Assembly (NCBI GenBank): GCA_027081015.1
Contig: JALWMA010000138.1
Location: forward strand, 1-56,336
Source: Campylobacterales bacterium
GTDB taxonomy: Bacteria > Campylobacterota > Campylobacteria > Campylobacterales > Hydrogenimonadaceae
Length of the DNA: 56,336 nt
Reading direction: 5' to 3'
Below, one piece after another: positions 20,491 through 56,336 of the stretch (position 1 is the first letter of the stretch; every line of letters begins with the position of its first letter). The translations under genes were made by a program, and so were the position numbers. The notes beneath the pieces are model-generated. The model ran no database searches. It was not told the origin of the DNA and saw only the letters and a program-made list of their open reading frames with translations.

Positions 20491-20572
20491 CCGATGCTAC
20501 GCAAACTCCGGGCCAAGCCCGCACTCTGGCAGGGCTTAGCGCCCCCGCGATCCCCTGATGCTTCGAAACCCG
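20491..20572 (+). repeat. Dispersed structured repeat, single divergent copy (R1)
   Basis: Sits between the aroB start and the stop of the TrkA-like gene. It shares the left end (GATGCTACGCAAACTCCGGG), hairpin 1 (CGGGC-CAA-GCCCG type), a GGGC/GCCC hairpin 2, a CCCC-TGATGCTTCGAAA block and a final CCGGA with the copies near 27.3 and 56 kb. The copy is truncated after hairpin 3. Strand is given by the order of the hairpins. Confidence 0.75.
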
Positions 20573-20577
20573 GAAGG

Positions 20578-27208: not shown

Positions 27209-27230
27209 CTCCCATCCTTTTTTGATGTTA

Positions 27231-27425
27231 TTTACTGATGTTACGCAAATTCCGGGCAGAGCCCGTAATTTGGCAGGGCCTGGCCGGCCCTACAACCCCC
27301 TAAAGCTACGAAATCCAAGATTTCGAGATGACTTTACGCTTTCTGCGTAAAATCGGTTATTCAAACTCCGGGCAGAGCCCGCAATTCGGAAGGGCCTGGA
27401 TATGGCCCTGCGCCCCCACTTCAGT
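27231..27425 (+). repeat. Dispersed structured repeat, two tandem units of 116-bp period (R2)
   Basis: Together with a short leader and a promoter this fills the 308 bases between the DksA-like gene and the metK remnant. The CGGGC of hairpin 1 recurs at 27253 and 27369, exactly 116 bases apart. Unit a has four stem-loops: hairpin 1 extended by AAATT/AATTT, hairpin 2 AGGGCC-TGGCC-GGCCCT, hairpin 3 CGAAATC-CAA-GATTTCG and hairpin 4 TTTACGC-TTTCT-GCGTAAA. Unit b stops after hairpin 2, whose loop has changed while the stem is kept. Confidence 0.85.
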
Positions 27426-47894: not shown

Positions 47895-47973
47895 TCCGAT
47901 GTAACACAAATTTCTGGCAGGGGCTGAGCGCCCCTTGCACCCCCCTGAAGCTTCTAAATCCTGAATTTCGGGA
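47895..47973 (+). repeat. Dispersed structured repeat, divergent single copy (R4)
   Basis: It begins CCGATGTAACACAAATTT like the other left ends and lacks hairpin 1. Hairpin 2 is AGGGGC-TGAGC-GCCCCT, with the same size and loop length as in R2/R3 but with a C:G pair changed to G:C. CCCCCTGAAGCTTC and an AAATCCTGAATTT remnant of hairpin 3 follow. It lies just upstream of the eIF-2B-like gene and in front of the cytochrome gene. Confidence 0.7.
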
Positions 47974-48184
47974 CTATTTTGAATTATATCGCTTTTCGAA
48001 TACAGAAATAGAGACGCTCCAATCCTTGGAAGAGTCGGAGCAGGAAGAGCCGCGGTAGGCTCAAAAGCGAGAAATCTATTGGACAGAGCAGGTTTAATCT
48101 TTTCATAAATAAATTAAGGTTAATATAGTCATAAGTTTTTCTAACTGGCGGTTGCACGCTCGGTTATATCAGGAAGGAGAAGTT

Positions 48185-55981: not shown

Positions 55982-55984
55982 CGG

Positions 55985-56304
55985 ATTTCGGGCAAAGCCC
56001 GCAATCCGGCAGGGCCTGGCCGGCCCTACAACCCCCTAAAGCTTCGAAATCCAAGATTCCGAGACGACGTTCCGTCAACGCAACGTCGGGTTACATCACG
56101 GACTCGGGCAAAGCCCGCAATCCGGCAGGGCCTGGCCGGCCCTACAACCCCCTAAAGCTTCGAAATCCAAGATTCCGAGACGACGTTCCGTCAACGCAAC
56201 GTCGGGTTTCATCACGGACTCGGGCAAAGCCCGCAATCCGGCAGGGCCTGGCCGGCCCTACAACCCCCTAAAGCTTCGAAATCCAAGATTCCGAGACGAC
56301 GTTC
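55985..56304 (+). repeat. Tandem array of three 116-bp structured repeat units (R3)
   Basis: This fills the 396 bases between gatB and the right window edge. CGGGCAAAGCCCGCAATCCG recurs at 55989, 56105 and 56221, exactly 116 bases apart, and the first two periods are nearly identical. Each unit holds hairpin 1 (CGGGC-AAA-GCCCG), hairpin 2 (AGGGCC-TGGCC-GGCCCT), hairpin 3 (CGAAATC-CAA-GATTCCG, one mismatch) and hairpin 4 (GACGTT/AACGTC). The third unit breaks off after GACGACGTTC; the last 32 bases are unrelated and hold nothing I recognise. Confidence 0.9.
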
Positions 56305-56336
56305 ACCTGTCGCGGTACCTACCACGCGGCAAAGTA

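Follow-up and report, generated by a model that had tools for sequence, protein, structure and literature searches.

Bacterial MITEs such as ERIC, Correia/NEMIS and QMITE2 are short, non-coding, intergenic sequences with terminal inverted repeats (TIRs) and target duplications, which occur in tens of copies per genome, give rise to predicted stem-loop transcripts and are mobilized in trans by insertion sequences (PMC10969869). The repeat family described here resembles them in all of these respects, trans mobilization being the mechanism that we propose below; it differs from them in its sequence, in its 7-bp TTANTAA duplications, in a multi-hairpin interior that displays compensatory changes over many genera, and in the occurrence of several unrelated interiors within identical ends. 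A tandem array combined with a MITE is known from BrickBuilt of Porphyromonas gingivalis, and BrickBuilt and 464/PgRS provide a further parallel in that their terminal repeats resemble each other while their interiors are unrelated; in BrickBuilt, however, a 23-nt minisatellite lies inside one MITE (PMC4596501), whereas what is multiplied head to tail in our arrays is the entire element, of about 120 bp. REP/BIME sequences with their RAYT are likewise dispersed intergenic hairpins that are sometimes arrayed, but REPs measure 20-40 nt and lack target duplications, and their Y1 transposase is absent from the genome studied here.

Judged from sequence comparison, the repeat is a mobile element of the MITE type whose fold is unusually well conserved, and not a CRISPR array or a REP/RAYT element. 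While this kind of element is already known, the family itself appears to be undescribed: no Rfam model matches the window at the gathering threshold, matches elsewhere being sub-threshold and due to chance, and the open literature holds neither a description of the family nor, in what was found, a comparable repeat family in Campylobacterota, in agreement with the preliminary description, which knew of no named family that fits. The literature covered comprised open-licence papers, so that an earlier description elsewhere is possible. The overall explanation that we consider likely is that of a MITE moved in trans by an IS4-type or related transposase, whose fold has been kept and whose arrays result from slippage or exchange.

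Copies in the window

The window is the whole stretch of 56,336 nucleotides analyzed here, which belongs to a draft genome of 147 contigs and 2.14 Mb. A profile of the unit matches it exactly seven times, always on the + strand, with E-values from 1.5e-27 to 2.6e-6: as single copies at 20509-20571 and 47913-47980, as a two-unit array at 27253-27338 and 27369-27416, and as a three-unit array at 55989-56074, 56105-56190 and 56221-56303. These are the seven copies, all pointing one way, that had been listed beforehand, although their make-up is less uniform than was first thought.

Only one of them is a complete element, of 122 bp (27235..27356, + strand), whose TIRs are CTGATGTTACGCA (27235-27247) and TGCGTAAAATCGG (27344-27356) and which is flanked by target-site duplications that agree at 6/7 positions, TTATTTA on the left (27228..27234) and TTATTCA on the right (27357..27363). 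What had been described as two units at 27231 is thus an array made up of this complete element and a partial second unit (27357..27417, + strand), 116 bp downstream and in register. Both single copies are truncated at the 3' end: the copy at 20491..20577 (+ strand), with the left inverted repeat CCGATGCTACGCA, has a 3-dehydroquinate synthase gene on one side and a TrkA_C-domain gene on the other, and that at 47896..47980 (+ strand), with the left inverted repeat CCGATGTAACACA, adjoins the start of an IF-2B-family gene.

The array at the window end does contain three units, which are nearly identical to each other (115/116 and 85/85 bases for the array at 55988), but the third lacks hairpin 4 and the array runs into an assembly gap. 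On the + strand, the first unit (55982..56103, ending in the junction to the second) comprises hairpin 1 (55982-56008), hairpin 2 (56010-56029), the conserved linker AACCCCCTAAAGC (56030-56042), hairpin 3 (56042-56063) and hairpin 4 (56065-56088); the second unit (56104..56219, + strand) is identical to it at 115/116 bases, and the third occupies 56220..56304 (+ strand). The four stem-loops that the preliminary description had read as consecutive are real and conserved as a fold, except that an unpaired conserved linker separates hairpins 2 and 3. After the third unit, beyond the window end at 56336, a run of N begins at position 56337 of the contig (C138), after which the same unit end recurs, with an identical copy at contig position 56437; at this point the three-unit array may have been duplicated or collapsed in assembly.

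The 116-base spacing holds in both window arrays but is no general constant, since other arrays in the genome have periods of 116-121 and once 139; it is specific to the subtype to which the window copies belong. A CRISPR array was rejected as an explanation, as there are no unique spacers and the units abut through a shared junction.

Distribution across Campylobacterales

In the parts of the window's genome that were searched, the profile detects at least 82 copies at 56 places, far above chance, and 20 of these 56 places hold two to four tandem units. A close relative, Hydrogenimonas sp. S141_77, has orthologous stretches that are 86-94% identical to this genome. The covariance-model search that had been suggested beforehand did uncover relatives: 81 of 399 Campylobacterales genomes and 21 of 87 genera are matched, among them Hydrogenimonas, Sulfurimonas and relatives, in a patchy pattern that leaves 5 of the 18 members of the window's genus and most genomes of the order with no copy detected. 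With a pattern of the core, more than 109 matching stretches were obtained from 84,980 species genomes, and among the matches listed all organism names belong to Campylobacterota save for one MAG named only 'bacterium'. The viral collections contained the element in 0 viral contigs and 0 phages, and the plasmid collection yielded one copy only, on Sulfuricurvum kujiense pSULKU01.

The family is hence found in about a fifth of the sampled Campylobacterales genomes, with at least 80 copies in some. It provides sites of insertion ahead of housekeeping genes, stretches of homology at which rearrangement can occur, and a marker for the typing of strains.

Ends and target-site duplications

When copies from many genera are aligned, the unit proves longer than its conserved core and is bounded by the TIRs CTGAYNTTACGCA...TGCGTAANRTCAG, full-length copies measuring 116-143 bp (about 120). 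The copies are mostly intergenic and contain no coding sequence, and elements with these ends measure 39-268 bp between them. Over 148 TIR pairs, a 7-bp target-site duplication emerges with z = 14.8 against a permuted-partner control: the flanks match at 4.04 of 7 positions compared with 2.84 +/- 0.08 in permuted partners, and 51 of the 148 pairs match at 6 or more positions where about 4 would be expected. The next best duplication length, 9, reaches a z of 2.7 only. The target-site consensus, TTANTAA, is palindromic. Duplications of this kind are the signature that a staggered-cut insertion leaves.

Comparison with the complete genome G001 points in the same direction, as G001 lacks the element at two orthologous sites at which the window's genome carries it (L231/L302 and L093/L301), whereas at a third (L075/L310) it is common to both genomes and has diverged; the insertions are therefore of different ages. 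TIRs, precise 7-bp duplications, element-free orthologous sites and patchy spread together argue strongly for a MITE-type mobile element, thereby bearing out the mobile non-coding element that had been one of the initial proposals.

The same duplications decide against a REP/BIME-like element moved through single-stranded hairpins by a RAYT-type Y1 transposase, a reading whose probability we put close to nil. The hairpins, the intergenic position, a reverse-strand GTAG beside the hairpin and a replication-strand bias would all suit it; however, no Y1 transposase (PF01797) was detected in the window's genome, which is 99.9% complete, while control genomes were matched. Y1 transposition is not known to leave a target duplication, and the precise 7-bp duplications already refute this reading. 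The unlikeness to CRISPR arrays and simple REP elements noted at the outset consequently stands, there being no spacers, no Y1 transposase, and target duplications at the insertion sites.

Same ends around other interiors

In four genomes (G043, G118, G092 and G136), interiors other than the hairpin core also occur between these ends, again with 7-bp duplications, namely TIR-TIR miniatures of 39-46 bp, deletion forms of 65-108 bp, double-hairpin interiors of 257-268 bp and interiors of 211-241 bp with a GTCATTGCGAGGCACGAAGCAATCT-type repeat. Since several interiors occur between the same ends, the ends would seem to be what the mobilizing enzyme needs.

Some of these forms deserve separate mention. 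Elements of the 257-268-bp double-hairpin form occur in two families of the order (L245-L249, L252, L253 and L116:1043-1310) and have a conserved GGCRG...YAACGAAG and a central CCCTTCGGG. At L287-L290, L326 and L327 (G092), the same ends surround an interior with a GTCATTGCGAGGCACGAAGCAATCT...AATGAC repeat. In the window's genome itself, two homologous sequences (L227:974-1085, and L238 at about 13490-13601 of contig C73) have TIR-like ends and an interior unrelated to the core. Finally, a second palindromic repeat, of the type TTTTCTAAAGAAACTTCG / CGCAAAGCGAAAATGTTTCTTTAG, is inserted in element copies of Sulfurimonas and Hydrogenimonas, inside hairpin 1 or 3 (L126, L141, L144, L155, L162, L168, L182, L184 and L104).

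A candidate transposase partner

No transposase was found inside the TIR pairs examined, up to 3.5-5 kb. A search for an autonomous element between identical TIRs, which covered almost all exact TIRs of G136 and some of those of G092, G043 and G118, returned only MITEs, deletion derivatives and unrelated genes. A candidate partner was reached instead by reading the ends of transposase matches from a PF01609 screen. The same order harbors insertion sequences of 1.48-1.56 kb with ends CTNAACTTWCGCAC, whose 454-aa DDE protein scores above cut-off against NCBIfam NF049925 and is thereby placed in the IS4 family. A decayed copy ending in CTGAACTTTCGCAC is present in G136, a genome that carries about 50 exact element TIRs, and relatives of this copy were detected in 45 of the 399 genomes, Aliarcobacter plasmids included.

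Like our element, these insertion sequences have 7-bp AT-rich target duplications, which are perfect in six copies (L334, L336, L346, L363 and, twice, L364), and their ends, as on the Aliarcobacter plasmids NZ_CP104333 and NZ_CP099557, are similar to the CTGACCTTACGCAC of the element. The likeness varies by subtype: 11-12 of 14 positions are identical to the Campylobacteraceae-type element TIR and 9-10 of 14 to the Hydrogenimonas type, so that the IS4 TIR departs from that of the element at 2-5 of 14 positions, and none of the insertion sequences found has TIRs identical to those of the element. Unlike the element, they encode a transposase within a much longer and unrelated interior, from which that of the element is not derived, and none was detected in 18 genomes of the window's genus, the Hydrogenimonas group, where the partner is therefore either gone or unrecognized. 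Because they share an unusual duplication length and target type with the element, the IS4 elements are the best candidate group rather than a proven partner.

Ends and insertion scars thus point to the transposase of an IS4-type insertion sequence as the enzyme that moves the element. The DDE transposase of such an insertion sequence, or of a close relative, would bind the terminal repeats in trans and paste the element into AT-rich intergenic TTANTAA sites.

As a side observation, an aminoglycoside adenylyltransferase gene on the Aliarcobacter butzleri plasmid NZ_CP104333.1 lies between two equally oriented IS4 copies (L364:23830-28047); the outer flanks of the pair read taatata / taatata, an arrangement that resembles a composite transposon and its 7-bp duplication.

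A conserved multi-hairpin fold

According to the covariance model, the interior consists of a closing stem, formed by the TIRs, and three hairpins around a linker, AACCCCCTAAAGCTWCGAAA, which is almost invariant. Pair counts were taken from a covariance-model alignment (A3) of 113 copies, chosen over MAFFT because the latter misplaces hairpin arms between clades. In this alignment, pairing is found in 88.9% of cells and changes on both sides that preserve it at 37 of the 42 pairs, and the covariation score is 0.354 compared with 0.125 in shuffles and at most 0.071 with partners slid; A3 leans towards its own model, and the slid controls do not carry the signal. A model-free comparison of the arms of hairpin 1 gives the same picture, with 6.68 of 8 positions pairing when both arms come from one copy and 4.26 +/- 0.22 when they come from different copies, and fold z-scores range from -10 to -5. 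A.C combinations on the + strand that become G.U on the other strand number 196 against 58 of the reverse kind. This excess suggests folding of the reverse-complement strand, but most of it comes from two alignment columns.

Such a fold could mean that the repeat is a cis-regulatory or small structured RNA family spread by mobility, whose reverse-complement strand, transcribed within 5' leaders, would act on the gene behind it. The strong covariation and the two recurrent A.C mismatches would accord with that, as would the many copies located 15-35 bases upstream of start codons with their 5' end facing the gene. The neighbors, however, are unrelated (dehydroquinate synthase, a TrkA_C protein, an IF-2B protein, GatB, thiamine phosphate synthase), orientation relative to transcription is unbiased in co-directional gaps (8:11 and 28:29), and Rfam offers no match, all of which renders this alternative improbable. 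Of the RNA family that had been proposed, the real and conserved fold remains, whereas nothing shows action as a free RNA. Riboswitch-like regulation was rejected on account of the unrelated neighbor genes and the lack of a transcription-orientation bias. In the window's genome and the GTDB loci, copies separated from a start codon by no more than about 40 bases have their 5' end towards the gene some two times as frequently as their 3' end, by a rough and weak count uncorrected for multiple looks.

Returning to the MITE, its fold may have been kept because it matters to the element itself, whether it is single-stranded DNA that folds in this way during replication or RNA that does so in 5' leaders. 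A stronger version, which we regard as rather unlikely, is that the multi-hairpin interior functions in its folded state, as RNA or as single-stranded DNA of the lagging strand, and is itself recognized in mobilization or array growth. If true, the family would stand for a structure-dependent, replication-coupled class of mobile elements that borrows an IS4 transposase and accommodates interchangeable structured interiors between the same ends. The conserved fold, the interchangeable interiors and the replication-strand bias of the arrays open a general question to testing, namely why a gene-less parasite would retain a complex secondary structure.

Tandem arrays and replication strand

Tandem arrays are found mainly in Hydrogenimonas. 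Unit numbers differ between orthologous or homologous loci, being 2 versus 1 at L062/L218, L089/L214, L068/L195 and L071/L073 and 3 versus 1 at L088/L098, and the units of most arrays are at least as alike mutually as to any other copy, indicating that arrays grow and shrink in place. Dimers of 242 bp with perfect 7-bp duplications (L074 and L117), on the other hand, imply that some arose before insertion or moved as one unit. We propose that head-to-tail arrays arise at an existing copy through replication slippage, possibly on the lagging-strand template, or through unequal exchange between units, that their growth would be favored when one strand of the element lies on a given replication strand, and that some dimers could subsequently be mobilized together through their outer ends.

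Transposable elements whose orientation is determined by replication are already known (Gomez et al. 2014, as cited in PMC4549789). In the complete genome G001, where dnaA at base 83 and a change of GC-skew sign near 1.1 Mb agree with each other, the + strand of the element lies on the G-poor strand at 33 of 43 loci (p = 6e-4) and in 9 of 9 arrays. Local GC skew reveals the same preference at 35 of 49 places in the window's genome; this bias and the skew of the window, -0.059, fit the common direction of all window copies. The bias is significant in these two Hydrogenimonas genomes only: it is not significant in G007 taken alone (25/40), nor does it appear in Sulfurimonas and others (59/111). 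A bias of copy orientation relative to replication, which the preliminary description had suggested mapping, is hence seen in G001 and in the window's genome, but as a general rule the bias was rejected because it is absent outside Hydrogenimonas.

These strand figures, arrays included, are also what a chromosome-organising or replication-related protein-binding site at defined positions and orientation would predict. We nevertheless hold such a site to be very improbable, given that no copy was detected in 5 of the 18 genomes of the genus or in most of those of the order, that the bias is confined to Hydrogenimonas, and that target duplications and truncated relics belong to a mobile element. 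The chromosome-organising role envisaged initially is accordingly not upheld, several sister species being devoid of copies and both orientations occurring even though Hydrogenimonas is strand-biased.

Two of the locus pairs with differing unit numbers, L071 and L073 (97.8% identical) and L088 and L098 (80-98%), are homologous stretches within one draft assembly, and represent either paralogous regions or a mixture of strains.
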